This document shows, one piece after another, positions 7,434 to 60,189 of a DNA stretch of 62,834 bases. The DNA lies in assembly GCA_902764875.1 (NCBI GenBank), contig CACWXP010000019.1, positions 1 through 62,834 on the forward strand, given 5' to 3'. Origin of the DNA: an uncultured Eubacteriales bacterium (lineage in GTDB: Bacteria; Bacillota; Clostridia; Christensenellales; Aristaeellaceae). Positions within the stretch are counted from its first letter, which is position 1. Each line of letters opens with the position of its first letter. A program made the translations under genes and the position numbers. Under the pieces are notes generated by a model. It was not told the DNA's origin. It ran no database searches and saw nothing but the letters and a program-made list of their open reading frames with translations.

Positions 7434-7461
7434 CAATAACTACCCACGAATAACGATCCAC
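7434..7461. repeat. Degenerate heptad array A
   Basis: Plus strand, in 7-bp register: CAATAAC, TACCCAC, GAATAAC, GATCCAC, then TGCCG. It is a weak member of the TATCCAC heptad family and shares the exit CCACTGCCG with the array at 57899-57926. It lies in the gap between the ctsR promoter and the end of the serine hydrolase gene. Confidence 0.45.
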
Positions 7462-7488: not shown

Positions 7489-8667
7489 TTAAACCTCCCC
7501 GAAAGGAATCTCCTCCAGACCCAGCACATCCGCTACCGCCCGGTGCAGATGGGCATCCTTCTGGTGCACGTATTGAACCGAGGAAGCAATCACTTCTCCG
7601 TCCGGCCACCGGAATGTTCCGCTTCCGTCCTCCCGCAGGCCGTAATCCGTCAGTTTTTTGCCCTCTTCCGGAACCAGCACCGTCAGCCGGTTCTGCACCC
7701 GGTTTCCGAGAAAAACCGTAAAAATGCCCCGCTCCGGATCCACGGAAACGTGGTTCCCCGTGAATCCTCCGATGCCGAAGGCGTTCCGGCCCATATAGGC
7801 CGGTATTTCCGAATGGTACTGTTCCGGATGGCGAACGTAGCATTGCACCCCCAGGTACTGGGTGTGGCTCCCGTCCGGTCTTTCGTGCCCGGTCCGGTTC
7901 ACGGCGATTTCCCGCAGGCTTTCCCGGCTCACGATTTTTCCCCCGATCACCGCCCTGCAAAACCGGACCATATCCCCAACTGTGGAGAAAAGCCCGGCGT
8001 GTCCGCAAAGATCCCCGCTGTCTCCCTGCAGGATCGCCGCTTTCGGGTCGTGGGGCACCCCCTGTCGAAGGCCTTCCCGCAGGATATATTTTCCGTTTTC
8101 AATCCGGTGTTCCCGATCATAGCTCTGGCAGTCCGCGATTCTCTCCTCCGGAACCTTTGCCCAGGTTTCGGTCATGCCTGCCGGCTCCAGCACACACTTC
8201 CGAACGCACTCATAAAGCGGCATTCCCCCCGCCGCCTCCAGCACATACCGCAGGATCATTGCCGGAATGTCGGAATAGGCCCGCCGGTCCGGCTGCGCCG
8301 CCGCTTTCGCGGCAAACAGGGCGTCTTCCGCCTCCTCCCGTCCGCCGCAGGCGTCCAGCCGCACCGGTGTCCGGATCGTCGTCCCGAAAGTCATCAGCTC
8401 CCAAACGCTTCTGTCCCGCAGCCCTTTGAAACGAGGATCATACGAAGAAACAGACCTGCCGAAATCCAGCAGGCCCTCTTCACCGAGTTTCATGGCGCAT
8501 AGGCCCGTGAACAGCTTGGTCACGCTGGCCAGGTCAAACACGCTCCGCCCACCGACGTCCCCGTCCATGGCGGTTTCAATCCGTTCTCCCGCGCCGCAGG
8601 CGACGGAAACCCCGCTGAGGATCTCCGTCTCCCGGGTAAAAAACCGTATCCCATCCTGTAACGTCAT
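7489..8667 (-). CDS. Serine hydrolase, beta-lactamase/penicillin-binding-protein fold
   Basis: A 392-residue enzyme of the class C beta-lactamase-related family. The catalytic SxxK is SVTK in FDLASVTKLFTGL; YSDIPAM supplies the YxN-like motif; HAGLFSTVGDMVRF and GIGGFTGNHVSVDPE follow the usual C-terminal pattern. No signal peptide is seen, so a cytoplasmic esterase or amidase role is more likely than cell-wall peptidase. ATG 8667 overlaps the stop of the upstream kinase gene as ATGA, which fixes the start and implies translational coupling. The substrate cannot be told from sequence. Confidence 0.85.
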   Translation of the reverse strand: MTLQDGIRFFTRETEILSGVSVACGAGERIETAMDGDVGGRSVFDLASVTKLFTGLCAMKLGEEGLLDFGRSVSSYDPRFKGLRDRSVWELMTFGTTIRTPVRLDACGGREEAEDALFAAKAAAQPDRRAYSDIPAMILRYVLEAAGGMPLYECVRKCVLEPAGMTETWAKVPEERIADCQSYDREHRIENGKYILREGLRQGVPHDPKAAILQGDSGDLCGHAGLFSTVGDMVRFCRAVIGGKIVSRESLREIAVNRTGHERPDGSHTQYLGVQCYVRHPEQYHSEIPAYMGRNAFGIGGFTGNHVSVDPERGIFTVFLGNRVQNRLTVLVPEEGKKLTDYGLREDGSGTFRWPDGEVIASSVQYVHQKDAHLHRAVADVLGLEEIPFGEV

Positions 8668-10046: not shown

Positions 10047-10067
10047 TGTCCACTATGCATTATGCAT
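10047..10067. repeat. Heptad array B (TATGCAT type)
   Basis: Plus strand TGTCCAC, TATGCAT, TATGCAT in 7-bp register. The stop codon of the histidine kinase (minus strand TAA, 10060-10062) spans the junction of the last two units. Confidence 0.6.
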
Positions 10068-11581: not shown

Positions 11582-11650
11582 CTCCAAAGCCTAAAGCCTT
11601 AAATCTGAAGTCCGGTTCCCAGATACCTCTGTCCGCAATCCACTATACAC
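11582..11650. repeat. Heptad array C between kinase and regulator
   Basis: Plus strand: degenerate CCTAAAG-type heptads (CTCCAAAG, CCTAAAG, CCTTAAA) followed, after about 40 bp, by AATCCAC and TATACAC (11637-11650). Same order, CCTAAA type first and TATCCAC type second, as in the clearer arrays. The regulator's stop codon is within AATCCAC/TATACAC. Confidence 0.5.
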
Positions 11651-12343: not shown

Positions 12344-12403
12344 CCCTAAAGCCCAAAGCCTTATAACCCCTAATCCTTAAATCCTAAATCCTCATAACCC
12401 ATT
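12344..12403. repeat. Heptad array D (CCCTAAA type)
   Basis: Plus strand CCCTAAA and GCCCAAA, a short slip, then CCTAATC, CTTAAAT, CCTAAAT, CCTCATA, ACCCATT in 7-bp register. It fills the gap between mutS2 and the response regulator. The mutS2 stop (12402-12404 on the minus strand) is inside it and the regulator's ribosome site is at its other edge. Confidence 0.6.
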
Positions 12404-14773: not shown

Positions 14774-14842
14774 CCCTAAACCCTATACCCTAAAACCTAA
14801 ACCCTCGTAACCACTATCCACTAACCACTATTCACTATCCAC
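14774..14842. repeat. Composite heptad array E (CCCTAAA then TATCCAC)
   Basis: Plus strand CCCTAAA, CCCTATA, CCCTAAAA, CCTAAA (14774-14801), a 13-bp link, then TATCCAC, TAACCAC, TATTCAC, TATCCAC in exact 7-bp register (14815-14842). It occupies the mutS2-U32 gap and ends on the U32 stop codon. Confidence 0.8.
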
Positions 14843-17148
14843 TAAAAAACCGCCCGCGCCCAGTGCCCGCCCGTAGCATCCATCCCGGTCCGCGTCCCGG
14901 TTTCCAGCGCTCTCAGCACATTCTCCGTCTCTTCCGCCGTCTCCGTTGTCATTTCGACCATCGGATTCCGTATACCCTTCCGGTCTGTCCATTCCGTGGG
15001 CAGCCCGTTCATCAGCCGGATCCGGCATCCCTCCGGCATCCGCGTCCGCAGCAGCGGGAACCGGTGCCCCATGCCGTCCTCCAGCACGTTTCCTGCCAGG
15101 GCATCCGCTGCCCCCGTGTCGCACATCCGGCATTCCCGGTGTCCGTCCGTCAAACCCAGGGCTGTTCTTGCCGGGCAATGGTGCAGCAGCATCAGCTGCG
15201 TCCTCCCGAAAACCGTCACCGCGATGGGCGCACCGCCCGCCATCAGCGTCTCCAGTTCCTTTCCCGTCAGTTCCACCGAGGCCGTAACGAAGGCACATCC
15301 CGCCTCCAGCAGGAAAGCTGCCGCCTGCCGGTTCATCACCGGAATTCCGCTTCCCGCCCCGAAGGCCACGGGCCACCGGATCCCAAGCTGCCCGATGCTT
15401 CCGAGCACAACGCCGCCCAGCTTCTCCCGGTACTTCTCTGTGGCGGCATAAATCATCTGCAGCGTATTTTCCGTGCAAACCCGCGGAATCTGCAGCCAGT
15501 CGCCTTCCGGCATTTCTGTCAGCAGCGCCCGAAGCGCGTCCTCCCGCCAGTCCTCCGGATCCCATATGATCCGGCATCCGTGCCGCCGGGCCGCCTCTGC
15601 CTGTTCCCCGGTCCGAACGATCGCCATCTTCGGCAGCTCCGCCGCCGGCAGTTCTGCCGCAGGCAAGTCGCCTTCCGCTCCGGGCCCGGATCCGAAAGCT
15701 TCCGCCCGTTTCTCTTCCAGGGTCGCCAGTGCTTCCCGCCGGATCCGGTTGATCTCCGATACCGGCACAAAGGCGTCCCTGGTTTCGATCGTAATGTCTC
15801 CCGGCGTAAAAAGCGTGTCCCCCGTCCGGCCAAGGTTCCTGCGCAGTTCTTGCTCCTGCGCCGGCCGCGTCCGGGCAGCAGCTGTTTCGCCGCCCCGAAC
15901 GGTCACCTCGTTCTCTCCGTCCGAAACCCTCAGCGCCAGGGGCTCCCCCGCCACGGCCCGTAAGGTCATGCGCACTTCGACCCGTCGTCCGGGCATCGCC
16001 GCAGCCTTCCGGATCTGTTCCGCGCTCGTCAGCCGGGCCACCGTGTCCCCTGCTTCCGCTCGAAGGCCTTCCCGCAGGCGCACCAGCGCCGTGCTCCCCG
16101 CCGGCATATCTTTCCCGGCATAAATCAGGGCGCTCGCGCCTTTCCAGCCCTGGATTTCAATCTCGTCTCCGTCCGCCAGGTCCCTTTCCACCCGAATCCG
16201 GGCAAATCGGCTGTCGGCCTGTTCAACTTTCCCGATCACGACCCCGCTGTGGTTCACCCGTTCCGGATAAATCACCCCCGCGTCTTCGCTTCCGAAAGCA
16301 TATCCCTTCATGAATCCGCCCCGGTTGAAAATCTGCAGCAGCCCTTCCCGCTCTTCCGGGTCCGCCTTCCGGAACCGGCCGTTTTCCAGGCTGTCCAGTC
16401 CCTTCCGATAGGCCGCCGTCACGATCGCCGTATATTCCGGGCGCTTCGCCCGGCCTTCCAGCTTCACCGAAGCTACCCCCGCGTCCGCCAGTGCCGGCAG
16501 GTCATCCCGCAGGCAAACGTCCCGGGGGCTCAGCCACGCGCCTTTCCTTCCCCGGTAGATGTATTCCTTCCGGCAGGGCTGAGCGCACCGGCCCCGGTTT
16601 CCGCTCCGTTCCCCGACCATGCTGGAAAAAAGGCATTCCCCGCTTACCGCGACGCACTGGGCCCCGTGCCCGAAAACTTCAATCTCAATTCCGGTCTCCG
16701 CGCATTTCCGGATCTCCTCCAGGCTGCATTCCCGGGCCAGAACGACCCGCCGCATGTCCATCTCCCGGCACCATGCTGCCCCCGTCCGGTTGTGAATCGC
16801 CATCTGCGTGCTGGCGTGCACGGCAAGATCCGGGCACATTCCCCGGATCATCCGCAAAATCCCGCAGTCCTGCACCAGCACCGCGTCCGCCCGAACTTCC
16901 CTCAGCAGCCGGATCACCTCCGCCACTTCGGCCAGCTCTCGGTCCTTGACCAGTGTGTTCAGCGTCACGTGCACGCGCATATGCCGCGCGTGCGCATAGC
17001 GAACGGCCTCTTCCAGACCCTGCCGGTCAAAGTTGCCGGCCCCGGCCCGGGCGCTGAATGCGGCATATCCGAGATAAACCGCGTCTGCGCCGGCGGCGTC
17101 TGCCCGCTCCAAAGCGTCCCGGTTCCCGGCAGGTGCCAGATTTTCCAT
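14842..17148 (-). CDS. Peptidase U32 family protein with C-terminal DUF3656-like region
   Basis: A 768-residue U32 protein. The N-terminal TIM-barrel half starts MENLAPAGNRDALERADAAG and carries the family signature (EVFGHGAQCVAVSGECLFSS, then GNRGRCAQPCRKEY) with clustered cysteines; the C-terminal half fits the long collagenase-like forms. Relatives in E. coli (RlhA, UbiU/V, YhbU) act in RNA or quinone hydroxylation and carry Fe-S clusters, so 'peptidase' may be a misnomer. The upstream gene is zapA, the usual neighbour in Firmicutes. Its stop codon is supplied by heptad array E. Confidence 0.9.
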   Translation of the reverse strand: MENLAPAGNRDALERADAAGADAVYLGYAAFSARAGAGNFDRQGLEEAVRYAHARHMRVHVTLNTLVKDRELAEVAEVIRLLREVRADAVLVQDCGILRMIRGMCPDLAVHASTQMAIHNRTGAAWCREMDMRRVVLARECSLEEIRKCAETGIEIEVFGHGAQCVAVSGECLFSSMVGERSGNRGRCAQPCRKEYIYRGRKGAWLSPRDVCLRDDLPALADAGVASVKLEGRAKRPEYTAIVTAAYRKGLDSLENGRFRKADPEEREGLLQIFNRGGFMKGYAFGSEDAGVIYPERVNHSGVVIGKVEQADSRFARIRVERDLADGDEIEIQGWKGASALIYAGKDMPAGSTALVRLREGLRAEAGDTVARLTSAEQIRKAAAMPGRRVEVRMTLRAVAGEPLALRVSDGENEVTVRGGETAAARTRPAQEQELRRNLGRTGDTLFTPGDITIETRDAFVPVSEINRIRREALATLEEKRAEAFGSGPGAEGDLPAAELPAAELPKMAIVRTGEQAEAARRHGCRIIWDPEDWREDALRALLTEMPEGDWLQIPRVCTENTLQMIYAATEKYREKLGGVVLGSIGQLGIRWPVAFGAGSGIPVMNRQAAAFLLEAGCAFVTASVELTGKELETLMAGGAPIAVTVFGRTQLMLLHHCPARTALGLTDGHRECRMCDTGAADALAGNVLEDGMGHRFPLLRTRMPEGCRIRLMNGLPTEWTDRKGIRNPMVEMTTETAEETENVLRALETGTRTGMDATGGHWARAVF

Positions 17149-17161
17149 GCTCCGATATCTC

Positions 17162-17207
17162 CCCTAAACCTCTATCCACTATCCACTATCCACTATTCAC
17201 TATCCAC
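17162..17207. repeat. Composite heptad array F
   Basis: Plus strand CCCTAAA (17162-17168), then five perfect-register heptads TATCCAC, TATCCAC, TATCCAC, TATTCAC, TATCCAC (17173-17207). It sits between U32 and zapA, and the last codons and stop of zapA are made of it. This is the cleanest copy in the window. Confidence 0.88.
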
Positions 17208-17447
17208 TAAAAGCTCCAGCCGCCGCTGCAGCATCCGGTTCTCGTCCTGGGCTTTCAGCAGCTCCTCCGCCATCCGGAAGCAGGTCAGCACCGCCGCCTG
17301 GGCCGAAGGCAGCTTCGTTGCTGAAGCCGTTTCACTCAGCGTCCGGTCCACATAGGCTGCCACCCGCCGAACATGCTCCGGCGGATCGGTGGAAACCAGC
17401 GTATAGGGCTTCCCCGCAACCGTCACCGTGATCTTCTGCTTTTCCAT
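17193..17447 (-). CDS. zapA: Cell division protein ZapA
   Basis: Small FtsZ-ring stabiliser (84 residues). The N-terminal half VTVAGKPYTLVSTDPPEHVRRVAAYVD is the ZapA head domain; the rest is a coiled coil (AEELLKAQDENRMLQRRLELL). ATG 17447 has AGGAG upstream and matches the family start. The final residues LVDSE and the stop TAG are encoded by the TAGTGGA/TAGTGAA heptads, so the natural C-terminus may have been replaced by repeat sequence. Confidence 0.9.
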   Translation of the reverse strand: MEKQKITVTVAGKPYTLVSTDPPEHVRRVAAYVDRTLSETASATKLPSAQAAVLTCFRMAEELLKAQDENRMLQRRLELLVDSE

Positions 17448-18213: not shown

Positions 18214-19017
18214 ATGAATATTGTTCACCCTCTGCAGCCGGTCAACGGCCTGAATCCGGAAGATGTCTTTTATGCGGTCGATGATCTCGGAACGCAGACC
18301 GGATATGGGTTTATTCTCTATCAGTACCATCCCGGGCTCTATCCGGACTGCCCGGTCAATCTTTATTTCTCCATCGATGGAGATCCGGCCTCCCGCTATC
18401 TGCTGTTCGGCGCGCTGGTGGCCCGTGCACGCGTGCTCCAGTCGCTGAATCCAACCTTCCGGACCAGACTTTACACCAGTATCGCCCCGACCGACACCCA
18501 AATGAAGGATTTCTATCTGCAAAACGGCTTTGACTGCGAAGAAACCGATAATATTGTCCAGCTCACCATCCCTTACGGCGACGGCCGTATTCCCATGAGC
18601 TGTACCGTTGCCCCCACCCCTCTGAACACCTGGGATGAAATGAACGGCCTCCTCTATCGGCTGGAGGTAAACGAAATCACCTTCGTGGATATGAATTATC
18701 TCCAGTCCCTTATGCGTATGCCCCATTTCATGGTTCTGGGGCTCTATCGCAACGCAATCCTCATCGGTGAGGTCATCATGGCCGGCCAGGGCGGCGACTG
18801 CGAGCTGGCGGCCATCTATATTGAGCCCGGCTCCCGCAACCAGGGCATGGGCAGAGCCCTCCTCCACCGCATGATGGCCATCATGGCCGCCGAAGGCGTC
18901 ACCCGCATCACCACCCGGATCATGAGCCGCAGTCTCCCCCAGCAGCGCCTGATGGACGATTTTGGCGGTACCGTAATCGGGGTCAACATGATTTTCCCCG
19001 GAATGTACCTGAATTAA
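18214..19017 (+). CDS. Double GNAT-domain acetyltransferase
   Basis: A 267-residue protein with two GNAT-like halves. The second half (about 130-267) has the acetyl-CoA loop in IEPGSRNQGMGRALLHRMM, preceded by the beta-4 strand LAAIYI; the first half keeps the fold pattern (LYTSIAPTDTQMKDFYLQNGF) with a weaker CoA loop. Substrate unknown. GAAAGGAAT precedes the ATG. It is monocistronic behind a consensus promoter, and no clear terminator follows; a long non-coding island does. Confidence 0.85.
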   Translation: MNIVHPLQPVNGLNPEDVFYAVDDLGTQTGYGFILYQYHPGLYPDCPVNLYFSIDGDPASRYLLFGALVARARVLQSLNPTFRTRLYTSIAPTDTQMKDFYLQNGFDCEETDNIVQLTIPYGDGRIPMSCTVAPTPLNTWDEMNGLLYRLEVNEITFVDMNYLQSLMRMPHFMVLGLYRNAILIGEVIMAGQGGDCELAAIYIEPGSRNQGMGRALLHRMMAIMAAEGVTRITTRIMSRSLPQQRLMDDFGGTVIGVNMIFPGMYLN

Positions 19018-44929: not shown

Positions 44930-44949
44930 AGCCGAAACCCTGCCTCATA

Positions 44950-44970
44950 CCCTAAATCCTATATCCTAAA
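44950..44970. repeat. Heptad array G (CCCTAAA type)
   Basis: Plus strand CCCTAAA, TCCTATA, TCCTAAA in register, between the deacetylase and PL22-like genes. Only the CCCTAAA module is present, in the same orientation as elsewhere. Confidence 0.65.
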
Positions 44971-56173: not shown

Positions 56174-57844
56174 ATGAACTTCACTCCTCGCTGCACCCCG
56201 GACTTCTCGCCGCTGGGCACACTGCCCGGCTGGCTCAGCGCGCTGCTGCGTGCCCGGGGCGTGGATACGAAGGAAAAGGCGGATCGCTTCCTGAACCCGT
56301 CGCTGAAGGATCTGCACGATCCATATAGAATGGAAGGAATGGAAACCGCGGTGAAGCTGATCCGCCGGGCTATCGCCGCCGGAGACCGGATCATGATCTT
56401 CGGGGACTACGATGCCGACGGCGTCTGCGCCACCTCGATCCTCCTGGAAACCCTGACGGAGTTGGGCGCCCAGGTTTCCTTCCGGCTGCCCTCCCGTCAG
56501 AAGGACGGCTACGGCCTGAATGAAAACGCGGTCCGCGAAATCAGCGAAAAGGCAAAGCTCCTGATCACTGTGGACTGTGGCATTTCCAACCGGGCGGAAG
56601 TCGCCCTGGCAAAGGAACTGGGCATGACCGTCATCGTCACGGATCACCACCAGTTGCCGGAAGAGCTGCCGGAGGCGGATGCCGTTCTGAATCCCCTGAT
56701 TGGAAACTATCCCTGCCCCTTCCTGTGCGGTGCAGGTGTAGCGCTGAAGATTTGCCAGGCACTGCAGGGAACCGCCGGGTTGGAAAAGCGGCTGGATCTG
56801 GCCGCCATCGCCACCGTGGCGGATATCGTTCCTCTGATGGATGAGAACCGGGTCATCGTCCGGGAAGGCCTGGAGCTCATCCGAAGAACCGGGCGTCCCG
56901 GGCTGAAAGCACTCTTGGAATGTTCCGGTACCGCCGGTTCCCTGCAGGCCGATGCTCTGGCGTTCCGGCTCGGGCCGCGGCTGAATGCCGCAGGCCGGCT
57001 CGGTGACGCCTCCCTGGCGGTGCGGCTGCTGCTGACCGGCATACCGGAAAAAGCTGCTGACACCGCGGGCAAAATAGAGGAAATGAACCGCCAAAGACAG
57101 AATATGGAGCGGGAGATCACCGCTGCCGCCATGGCGCAGATTGCCGAGTCTCCTTCCTTCACGGAAGACCGGATCCTCATCGCTGCGGGCGAAGGCTGGA
57201 ACCCAGGCCTGATAGGCCTTGCCGCCGGTAAGATCTGCGAGAAATTCTACCGGCCGGCGATTGTCCTGAGCCTGCCGGAGGACGGCGGTCCCGCTGTCGG
57301 CTCCTGCCGGTCCATTCCCGGCGTGAACATCTTTGAACTCCTGCTGGATTGCGAAGATCTGCTCGTCCGCTTCGGAGGGCATGCCCAGGCGGCCGGTCTC
57401 ACCGTGGCCCGGGAAAACATCCCGGCCCTGCGGGAGAGAATGAACCGGATCCTGCGGGAGCAGATCGATGCGGCCGTCTTCGTCCGCACCCTGGATTACG
57501 ATCTGGAAGTTCCCTTCCGGAACTGGACGGCGGAAACGCTCGCCGAGCTGGATCTGCTGGAACCCACCGGTTACGGCAATCCGGTGCCCGTGTTTCTGCT
57601 CTCCGGCGCCCAGGTTCAGAGCATGCGCCGCGTCGGCCGGGACCTCAGTCATCTCCAACTCCAGCTTCTTACCCCGGAAAGCACCCTTGTCAAAGGAATA
57701 GCGTTTTCCATGGGCGAGGAAGCGGAAAAGGATCATATGGACGTCGATGTCCTCTACCGCCCTGTAAGAAACGAATTCAATGGCCGCACCTCGATCGAAG
57801 CGCAGATTTCAGCCCTGCGCCCCAGCGGCATCCCCATTCCCTAA
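56174..57844 (+). CDS. recJ: Single-stranded-DNA exonuclease RecJ
   Basis: DHH/DHHA1 5'-3' exonuclease for recombination and repair, 556 residues. FGDYDADGVCATSI (motif I), DCGISNRAEV (motif II), VTDHHQLPEELPEADAVLNP (motif III, DHH) and the DHHA1 motif CEDLLVRFGGHAQAAGLTV are intact. Shorter than many Firmicute RecJ proteins, having little beyond the OB-like C-terminal domain. Its stop codon is the TAA of a CCCTAAA heptad, so the extreme C-terminus may be set by the repeat. Confidence 0.95.
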   Translation: MNFTPRCTPDFSPLGTLPGWLSALLRARGVDTKEKADRFLNPSLKDLHDPYRMEGMETAVKLIRRAIAAGDRIMIFGDYDADGVCATSILLETLTELGAQVSFRLPSRQKDGYGLNENAVREISEKAKLLITVDCGISNRAEVALAKELGMTVIVTDHHQLPEELPEADAVLNPLIGNYPCPFLCGAGVALKICQALQGTAGLEKRLDLAAIATVADIVPLMDENRVIVREGLELIRRTGRPGLKALLECSGTAGSLQADALAFRLGPRLNAAGRLGDASLAVRLLLTGIPEKAADTAGKIEEMNRQRQNMEREITAAAMAQIAESPSFTEDRILIAAGEGWNPGLIGLAAGKICEKFYRPAIVLSLPEDGGPAVGSCRSIPGVNIFELLLDCEDLLVRFGGHAQAAGLTVARENIPALRERMNRILREQIDAAVFVRTLDYDLEVPFRNWTAETLAELDLLEPTGYGNPVPVFLLSGAQVQSMRRVGRDLSHLQLQLLTPESTLVKGIAFSMGEEAEKDHMDVDVLYRPVRNEFNGRTSIEAQISALRPSGIPIP

Positions 57845-57926
57845 ACCCTTAAACCTAACCCCTAAAACCTCCAAGTCCGTCCCCAACCACCGGCCCACTA
57901 TCCACTCCCCACTATTCACTATCCAC
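57839..57926. repeat. Composite heptad array H (CCCTAAA then TATCCAC)
   Basis: Plus strand CCCTAAA, CCCTTAAA, CCTAACC, CCTAAAA (57839-about 57868), then TATCCAC, TCCCCAC, TATTCAC, TATCCAC in exact 7-bp register (57899-57926). Same order and same plus-strand orientation as arrays E and F, although here the flanking genes are on the plus strand. Confidence 0.82.
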
Positions 57927-57984
57927 TGCCGTGCTGTCGCGCCGCAGCGCGGCCCTTGACTCCGCTCAGAAAGGAGGAATCCAC

Positions 57985-60189
57985 ATGGCCTTTACTTCCT
58001 ATGAAGCCATGCCGCTGGACCAGATGCTGAACCGGGTGCAGAAATATCACCCCGGGGATGGCTACAAACTTGTCGAACGGGCATGGACTTTCGCGGAGAA
58101 AGCCCATGCCGGACAGATCCGCAAATCCGGGGAGCCGTATTTCACGCACCCCTGTTTGGTCGCGTCCATTCTGACGGATCTGATGATTGATCCGCCCACC
58201 ATCGCGGCCGGCCTCCTGCATGACACGGTGGAGGACTGTGAAGGAATCACTCTGGATACCATCCGCTCGGAATTCGGGCAGGAAGTGGCCGACCTGGTGG
58301 ACGGCGTCACCAAGCTGAACAAACTGGACTTCGCCAACCGGGAGGAAGCCCAGGCCGAGTCCCTGCGCAAAATGATTCTGGCCATGAGCCGGGATATCCG
58401 CGTGGTATTGATCAAGCTGGCGGACCGGCTGCACAACATGCGCACCCTCCGCTTCCAGCCGGAGGATCGGCGAAAAGCCATCGCCCGGGAAACGCTGGAT
58501 ATTTACGCTCCCCTGGCCCACCGCCTGGGCGTGTATGCCCTGAAGCAGGAGCTGGAGGATCTTTCCCTCAAATATATCGATCCGGATGGATACAACCGCA
58601 TTGTCCATCTGGTGGGTATGAAACGGGCTGAGCGGGAAGAAAGCATCCGCCTGGTGATCTCCGAGCTTTCCGAGCGTCTGGATGCCCAGGGCATTCATTA
58701 CGATATCGACGGCCGCTCCAAGCATTTCTATTCCATCTACCGCAAGATGGTGCTGCAGCAGAAGTCCTTCGACCAGATCTACGACCTCATCGCGATTCGG
58801 GTCATCGTGGATACCATTCCGGACTGCTACACCGTCCTGGGTATCGTCCACACCCTCTGGAACCAGGTGCCCGGCCGGTTCAAGGACTATATCTCCGTTC
58901 CGAAGGCAAACATGTATCAGTCTCTGCATACAACGGTGGTCGGCGGCCGGAGAATTCCCTTCCCCTTCGAGGTCCAGATCCGAACCTGGGAAATGCACCG
59001 GGTCGCGGAATACGGCATTGCGGCCCACTGGCGCTACAAGGAAGGCGCCTCTCAGGAGGACAACCTGGATCATAAACTGTTCTGGGTGCGCCAGATGCTG
59101 GACTGGCAGACAGAAACCCGGGATTCCCGGGAATTCCTGGACACCCTGAAAACCGACCTTTTCTCTGAGGAGGTTTTCCTCTTCACACCCAAGGGCGACG
59201 TCATCTCCATGCCCAAAGGCGCAACGCCCCTGGACTTTGCCTACCGGATCCATTCCGCCGTCGGCAACCAGTGTGTCGGCGCCCGGGTAAACGGAAAAAT
59301 CATTCCCCTGGATACAGCCCTGTCCACCGGCGATCGGGTGGAGATCATCACCTCCGCCTCCTCCAAGGGACCGAGCACCGACTGGCTGCGCATCTGCAAA
59401 ACGCCCCAGGCCAAGGCGAAAATCCGCCAGTTCCTGAAAAAATCCCTCAAGGAAGAAAACATCGATCTGGGCCGCAGCATTATTGAAAAGGAATGCACCC
59501 GCCGCGGCGTGAAGATGTCCGATATCGTAAAGCCGGAATACTACGAGCCGCTCCTTCGGAAGTACGGTTTCCTGGATTTCGAGGATATATGCGGCGCCGT
59601 CGGCTACGGCGGCATGGCCGCCATCTATGTGGTTTCCCGCCTGCTGGAAGAGCAGAAGGCGAAGGAAGCTCCACCCCAGCCCATCAAGACCGTCAACGAT
59701 CTTGTTTCCACCGAGCAGCAGCTGTCCCAGCGCCGGGCCCATCACGGCATCGTCATGACCGGCTCCGAGGATCTGGATATCCCGGTCCGCTTTGCCAAGT
59801 GCTGCTCCCCCGTTCCTGGGGATGAAATCGTCGGCTATATCACCCGCGGCCGCGGCGTCACCATCCATAAAGCGGAATGCGTCAATGTCGCCGCCGGCGA
59901 GGATGAGCGCAAGGTGGCCGTGGAATGGGCGCTGGACGGCGAAGGCACATTCTCCGCAACCATCACCATCCTGGCCTACGATCGGGTGAACATGCTCGGC
60001 GAAATCGCCACGATCATCGGGGAAAACGGTGTGTCCATCCGGGCCGCCTCCATCCAGTCCAGCGGCAAAACCCGGATTTCCACCCTCCGCCTGACCCTCG
60101 ACGTCCATTCCCGGGAAGAGATGGAACGGGTCATCAAGGCCCTCCGCAACAAGTCCGACATCCTGGATGTCTACCGCACTGCTACCTAA
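57985..60189 (+). CDS. relA: Bifunctional (p)ppGpp synthetase/hydrolase (Rsh)
   Basis: Stringent-response enzyme, 734 residues. HD hydrolase: [10 protein letters not shown] and [11 protein letters not shown] with downstream HD ligands; synthetase: [12 protein letters not shown] and [14 protein letters not shown]; then TGS ([20 protein letters not shown]), a helical/zinc-finger-like region with [16 protein letters not shown], and a C-terminal ACT domain. Both catalytic halves appear intact. ATG 57985 has AAGGAGG. It leads dtd, its usual neighbour in Firmicutes. Confidence 0.96.

Follow-up and report, generated by a model that had tools for sequence, protein, structure and literature searches.

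Period-7 intergenic arrays of an uncultured Aristaeellaceae bacterium are oriented uniformly with respect to the presumed replication fork

Short tandem arrays of 7-bp units are dispersed between the genes of an uncultured Eubacteriales bacterium (GCA_902764875.1, Aristaeellaceae), and they point in one direction relative to the presumed replication fork, whatever the direction of the neighbouring genes. The uniform orientation of all the arrays examined with respect to the copying of the chromosome suggests that DNA replication has a part in writing them. The arrays have a definite polarity, occupy characteristic positions and turn over between related genomes.

The window (the whole 62,834-nucleotide stretch analysed, contig CACWXP010000019.1) holds the following period-7 features, identified with TRF, by mismatch-tolerant pattern matching and by scoring local segments at lag 7.

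14774–14844, plus strand: composite period-7 array (TRF; lag-7 segment score 21.5), CCCTAAA-type at 14774–14805 (4.6 copies) and then TATYCAC-type at 14808–14844 (sub-parts by TRF)
17169–17209, plus strand: CTATCCA/CTATTCA array of approximately 5.4 units (lag-7 segment score 26.5)
57839–57927, plus strand: CCCTAAA-type (57839–57870) and then TATYCAC-type (57894–57927) array (TRF)
12344–12403, plus strand: degenerate stretch resembling CCCTAAA, located between a response regulator and a MutS2-like gene (2-mismatch matches)
44947–44970, plus strand: CCCTAAA/ATATCCT-like, approximately three units, just 5′ of a plus-strand gene (TRF score 30)
11582–11650, plus strand: CCTAAAG-like with one TATCCAC-like doublet, marginal (3-mismatch matches, one 2-mismatch match)
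10054–10067, plus strand: TATGCAT doublet, outside the heptamer family (two copies, conserved in the congener G012)

Each of the first three features meets the end of a gene (U32 peptidase, ZapA, RecJ-like and RelA/SpoT were assigned from gene calls and Pfam). The TAG stop of the U32 peptidase gene (14842–17148, minus) is supplied by the last unit of array 14774–14844, and the stop codon of zapA (17193–17447, minus; ZapA by Pfam) is located inside array 17169–17209, for which TRF called (TATYCAC)n at 17172–17209 with 5.4 copies and 93 % matches. The third array occupies the gap between the plus-strand RecJ-like (56174–57844) and RelA/SpoT (57985–60189) genes, its first unit containing the RecJ-like stop codon, and it is oriented with the fork, not with these two flanking genes. 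On the basis of the window, we suspect a fixed order in which CCCTAAA-type units precede TATCCAC-type units.

A preliminary description of this DNA had assigned all of these stretches to a single family of heptameric repeats. TRF and the shuffles bear this out at 14774–14844, 17169–17209 and 57839–57927, including the TATYCAC arrays that it placed at 17173–17207, 14815–14842 and 57899–57926. Its CCCTAAA-type arrays hold at 14774–14805 and 57839–57870 (TRF), while 12344–12403 (TRF score 35 at 12372–12392, inside the stretch) and 44950–44970 are weak, with two to three mismatches per unit pair. What it listed as weaker copies are marginal, with 1.9 copies of a 14-mer at 7434–7461 (TRF) and no TRF row at 11582–11650. 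The TATGCAT sequence has to be removed from the family: it is a doublet, 4 of 100 shuffles contained as many two-copy matches, and it recurs letter for letter in G012.

Against dinucleotide shuffles of the window, TATYCACTATYCAC with up to two mismatches returned 12 matches (shuffle mean 0.60; 0/100 shuffles reached 12) and CCCTAAACCCTAAA with up to three mismatches returned 16 (shuffle mean 2.95; 0/100 reached 16). All 28 of these overlapping matches lie on the plus strand. Across the genome, CTATYCACTATYCACTA matched 52 times, at 29 separate sites on 20 contigs, and its reversed control matched nowhere. The existence of a dispersed intergenic family with a 7-bp period and several units is thus confirmed by the genome-wide matches and the lag-7 scans, in tens of copies (29 strict TATYCAC sites) and not the hundreds that had been envisaged. 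With rotations merged, AGTGGAT, AATAGTG, AGGATTT, AGTGGGT and AGGGTTT lead the unit census of this genome. The resemblance of CCCTAAA to the plant telomere unit, remarked on in the preliminary description, looks coincidental because the arrays are short, degenerate and contig-internal and represent one unit type among several. A plant-type telomere repeat was also considered and rejected, as the arrays are not the long exact TTTAGGG arrays of chromosome ends, and the excess of one-mismatch double units (CCTAAACCCTAAAC) in this genome was smaller than that of the TATYCAC unit (16 versus 4 reversed).

The period itself was assessed by a local-segment scan at lags 4–15. In two congeners the result was sharp: G002 returned 11 non-coding segments at lag 7 and eight at lag 14, G007 returned seven and four, and neither had a non-coding segment at any other lag, the shuffle expectation being 0–0.1 per lag. 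In the 463 kb scanned of the genome under study, two segments were found at lag 7 and four at lag 14, but three at lag 8, a small lag-7 excess; autocorrelation over whole gaps failed to pick out lag 7 in this genome, and the local-segment scan was needed. Period 7 is clear here for the TATYCAC unit and, in this 463-kb sample, slightly above other lags. The 119 loci listed from other organisms, which had been selected by a period-7 match, contained 213 lag-7 segments versus 5–12 at every remaining lag between 4 and 12.

The purine strand (TGGATAG/TTTAGGG) was found on the G-rich, presumed leading strand in 45/45 intergenic arrays. These derive from 46 lag-7 arrays in the fetched stretches, 45 of which fall outside called genes; the single intragenic array was set aside and has the same polarity. 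The 21 stretches were picked around pattern matches and are not a density sample. Replichores were taken from GC skew rather than from a mapped origin, and the strand of two arrays on contig C1 (224–225 kb) was assigned by the skew of the first 200 kb of that contig. Third-position skew, compared between plus- and minus-strand genes, indicated the same strand in 15/17 two-strand stretches; five further stretches have genes on one strand only. Thirty-three of the arrays lie beside co-directional gene pairs, five beside head-on pairs and seven in mixed or unknown contexts. It is in the head-on cases that the fork term is seen in this genome: between gene pairs facing the fork, 5/5 arrays follow the fork (four gaps, on C12, on C18 and in the window). 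When 2091 background intergenic 33-mers were examined, 884 of the 1313 decided agreed with this polarity (67 %), which puts the chance of 45/45 at approximately 2e-8. Strand was also concordant in all eight contigs with at least two separate CTATYCACTATYCACTA matches (17 sites), and CCCTAAA-type and TATYCAC matches share a strand in 8/8 contigs carrying both.

Polarity was also detected for other units in the genus. Of 226 decided arrays in G002, 182 lie with the replichore and 44 against it (14 were undecided), and at head-on gene pairs 20/25 do so; the replichores of G002 were drawn from the skew of 21 stretches, one of which, at 2.21 Mb, has the opposite sign. Near 3′ ends the replichore odds ratio in G002 is 17 (p 8e-9) versus approximately 1.7 for background 33-mers, and near 5′ ends it is 7.9, not clearly above background composition (approximately 4.0). 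In G001, among the matches listed, AATTCTG is on the minus strand at 13/14 sites below 1 Mb, where skew is positive, and on the plus strand at 18/22 sites between 1.0 and 2.2 Mb, where skew was negative at 3/3 places sampled; among the matches listed from 2.2 to 2.95 Mb the strands are mixed (18 plus, 13 minus). In Methylotuvimicrobium (G046), TATTCAC is mostly on the G-rich strand, opposite to the genome under study, with at least five exceptions.

The arrays are concentrated at stop codons. Leaving aside two arrays on C1 that fall outside the stretches used, 28 of 43 intergenic arrays contain a stop codon or lie within 10 nt of one, and TAG accounts for 12/28 of these array-associated stops versus 50/665 of the genes whose end is complete. 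Stop codons occur in all three frames of the purine strand (TGGATAG, TTTAGGG). All-frame stops were rejected as the sole cause of the arrays: the AATGCAG units of G002 are stop-free on both strands, and arrays beside head-on genes in the genome under study present the stop-free CTATCCA.

Distribution among close relatives is patchy. Within the genus, CTATYCACTATYCACTA was found in 0/44 congeners, and this TATYCAC pattern is present in 1/45 genomes with the genome under study included, so the count in related genomes suggested by the preliminary description fails for this unit and succeeds for other heptamers. The units of G002 include AATTCAG, AACAATG, AATTATG, AATGCAG, AAAACTT, AGGAGGT and more. 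An AATTCTG pattern is present in 12/45 genomes of the genus (G002, 107 matches; G001, 124; G028, 132; G032, 121; G007, 28; seven others lower; control no more than three per genome). At the U32 gene loci of congeners, 4/30 have lag-7 segments, and the units at this locus differ among G000, G002 and G007/G028. A genus whose species carry different units amounts to a natural experiment.

Beyond the genus, an even sample of the phylum contained CTATYCACTATYCACTA in 4/299 genomes, the genome under study among them, and the control matched in one genome. A longer TATYCAC-type pattern, searched in one genome per species, returned at least 119 stretches from many phyla; among the matches listed are Clostridia, Bacteroidota, cyanobacteria, Chloroflexota, Planctomycetes, Campylobacterota, Gammaproteobacteria, Acidobacteria, Verrucomicrobia and others. 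Many of the listed carriers are metagenome bins, a label absent from the titles of Petroclostridium sp. X23 and Methylotuvimicrobium buryatense 5G; TATYCACTATYCACTA matched 89 times in the former and 166 times in the latter, with no reversed match in either.

Turnover is apparent from the comparison with G012, which is syntenic with the genome under study at approximately 79–87 % DNA identity over most blocks. Six aligned orthologous gaps in G012 lack such arrays, and the local-segment scan found no period-7 segment in its first two stretches (40 kb). Two array-bearing gaps exceed their G012 orthologues by approximately the length of the array (143 versus 36 bp for the gap around array 57839–57927, and 102 versus 50 bp). 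Within the genome under study, three arrays scoring at least 11 occur in the 63-kb window, and neither C1 nor C4 has one in its first 200 kb; contig C36 (15.6 kb) also has three arrays.

By their 7-bp tandem units, dispersed intergenic sites and patchy occurrence among close relatives, the arrays belong to the known bacterial intergenic heptanucleotide repeats, a class that includes TAACTGA, GGGNATC and the cyanobacterial STRR. STRR are short tandemly repeated repetitive heptanucleotides dispersed in the genomes of heterocystous cyanobacteria, and they resemble our arrays in being dispersed and tandem, while their units and lineage differ. The preliminary description knew of no described bacterial family of this form, a statement contradicted by the published accounts (PMC4679880, PMC4692102). 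Intergenic TAACTGA arrays are described from Beggiatoaceae, cyanobacteria and Bacteroidetes (MacGregor 2015, PMC4679880); as described there, they share with ours the 7-bp unit, the dispersed intergenic tandem arrangement, stops in three frames on one strand, overlap with stop codons and a patchy occurrence among relatives and across phyla. However, most TAACTGA arrays are there placed in forward orientation immediately 5′ of start codons, whereas ours are mostly at gene 3′ ends, and the unit census shows a different unit. GGGNATC arrays of Xanthomonas and Nostoc (Rehm et al. 2015, PMC4692102, the introduction of which mentions Calothrix too, as well as an earlier survey (2007) of over-represented heptamers) are likewise 7-bp, intergenic and located near stops on the coding strand and near starts on the non-coding strand. 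They are reported to form G-quadruplexes, unlike our arrays (1/45 at G4Hunter 1.2), and GGGAATC in xanthomonads is there given no leading/lagging preference, in contrast to 45/45 polar arrays here. Our arrays are thus members of neither the TAACTGA nor the GGGNATC family. Heptamer arrays being a known class, it is the replication polarity that looks new: the terms leading strand, lagging and replichore do not occur in the text of PMC4679880, and a literature search of limited depth yielded no account of heptamer arrays that follow replication.

The reading that we favour, tentatively and at slightly less than an even chance, is that the arrays are lineage-specific heptanucleotide microsatellites produced by replication-coupled seeding and slippage and tolerated at gene ends. 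A short heptamer-bearing single strand would mis-anneal, or be copied, where a passing fork leaves DNA exposed and so seed an array, the orientation of which would be set by the fork because it was seeded on that exposed DNA. The seeded array would then grow and drift by slippage and may last where its harm is small, above all at gene ends, since the purine strand has stops in three frames and could become the stop of the gene; its neutrality there is presumed. A dedicated sequence-specific function is less likely, and the arrays may have a mild effect as intergenic spacers that supply stop codons. Gene end and fork probably both determine orientation, with weights that vary between genomes, given the fork polarity seen here, the gene-end rule seen in Petroclostridium and the 119 loci, and the opposite polarity of Methylotuvimicrobium. 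More speculatively, and rather doubtfully, an old and widespread fork-coupled process may write arrays at gene ends, each lineage running it with its own current unit, which would account for the same few heptamers (TATYCAC, for instance) arising convergently in unrelated phyla. We know of no accepted answer to why 7 bp is a frequent unit of bacterial microsatellites. If confirmed, a fork-dependent orientation would shift attention from the regulatory targets of the arrays to the way in which replication produces them, and would caution against calling such arrays binding sites by position alone.

The main rival, somewhat unlikely in our view, is an mRNA-level element, in which gene-oriented arrays would influence translation, termination or the stability of the mRNA, a role already proposed for TAACTGA (PMC4679880). 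The purine strand would then be sense after a stop codon and antisense before a start codon, a rule that operates in other genomes. Of 120 arrays at the 119 loci listed (29 at locus edges and 12 within ORFs were set aside), 61 of the 79 placed fit it, the GTGRATA strand being coding in 32/40 nearest a 3′ end and template in 29/39 nearest a 5′ end. It also holds among co-directional genes of Petroclostridium (24/32 and 14/18 decided), its effect is visible in G002, and a matching gene-end anatomy is reported for GGGAATC (PMC4692102). In Petroclostridium and the other phyla the gene-end rule describes the arrays, and a fork effect is inseparable from it. In the genome under study, however, the five head-on arrays are oriented by the fork and not by the genes, and in the five arrays nearest a 5′ end of co-directional genes the purine strand is the coding one, contrary to the rule; near 3′ ends in G002, a strong fork effect persists within it.

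Plain slippage of pre-existing sequence, with orientation following from strand composition alone (the leading strand being richer in G and A), is improbable: the intergenic background is skewed likewise, but 45/45 far exceeds its 67 %, AATTCAG is polar in G001 and G002 despite a near-balanced composition, and one unit at 29 sites is not expected of independent slippage in unrelated gaps. Elements of the IS200/IS605 or RAYT/REP type insert fork-dependently, and remnants of such single-strand mobile elements, with a preference for the lagging-strand template, could explain the identical arrays at many sites of G002 and the inverted arrays at both ends of some of its gaps. We consider this very improbable, as the Y1_Tnp domain (PF01797) had no match in the genome under study (93 % complete) versus 28/45 congeners, G012 has the domain yet no match to either heptamer pattern searched, and inspection by eye revealed no conserved core between arrays. 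G-quadruplex repeats of the GGGNATC kind are barely credible, for although one strand of the TTTAGGG and TGGATAG units contains runs of G, the G4Hunter mean reaches 1.2 in the single array mentioned above and in 0/232 arrays of G002. Clusters of DnaA boxes titrating DnaA have an almost negligible probability. The DnaA box consensus is TTATCCACA, with the core TATCCAC, weak boxes resemble TATTCAC, and TATCCAC arrays agree with the consensus at 7/9 letters; however, none of the 120 xTATNCACx words in our arrays is TTATCCACA while 87 are CTATCCACT, and the units of G002 are unrelated to the box. Primase start sites were rejected because the polarity is the reverse of that expected: Firmicute primase prefers CTA, and the lagging-strand template here has TAG.

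Several further observations were made. Other repeated pieces lie beside the heptamer arrays in the L212 and L253 gaps of G002 (around 353100–353560 and 361140–361470), for example GGGAACGATAGGGACGGTCC in inverted copies and a stretch with GGTCGAGATGACA at its end. Many gaps of Petroclostridium sp. X23 (L290–L309) have inverted heptamer arrays at both ends, for example those with GTTCACGG and CTGTGAAC, approximately 190 bp apart near 3417322–3417567. The small contigs C36, C45, C47 and C54 of the genome under study are rich in arrays, possibly on account of assembly breaking at repeats. Window positions 19013–53793 (approximately 34.8 kb) have no counterpart at the syntenic point of contig C18 of G012, where the flanking matches resume within approximately 60 bases; this reflects either an insertion in the genome under study or a loss or move in G012. 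The window also encodes, at 7489–8667 (minus), a protein assigned to PF00144, a broad family with the beta-lactamase fold and too wide to be informative on resistance. An Rfam search of the window matched the raiA RNA alone (RF03072; 3030–3231, minus; 163.5 bits, gathering score 101.3).
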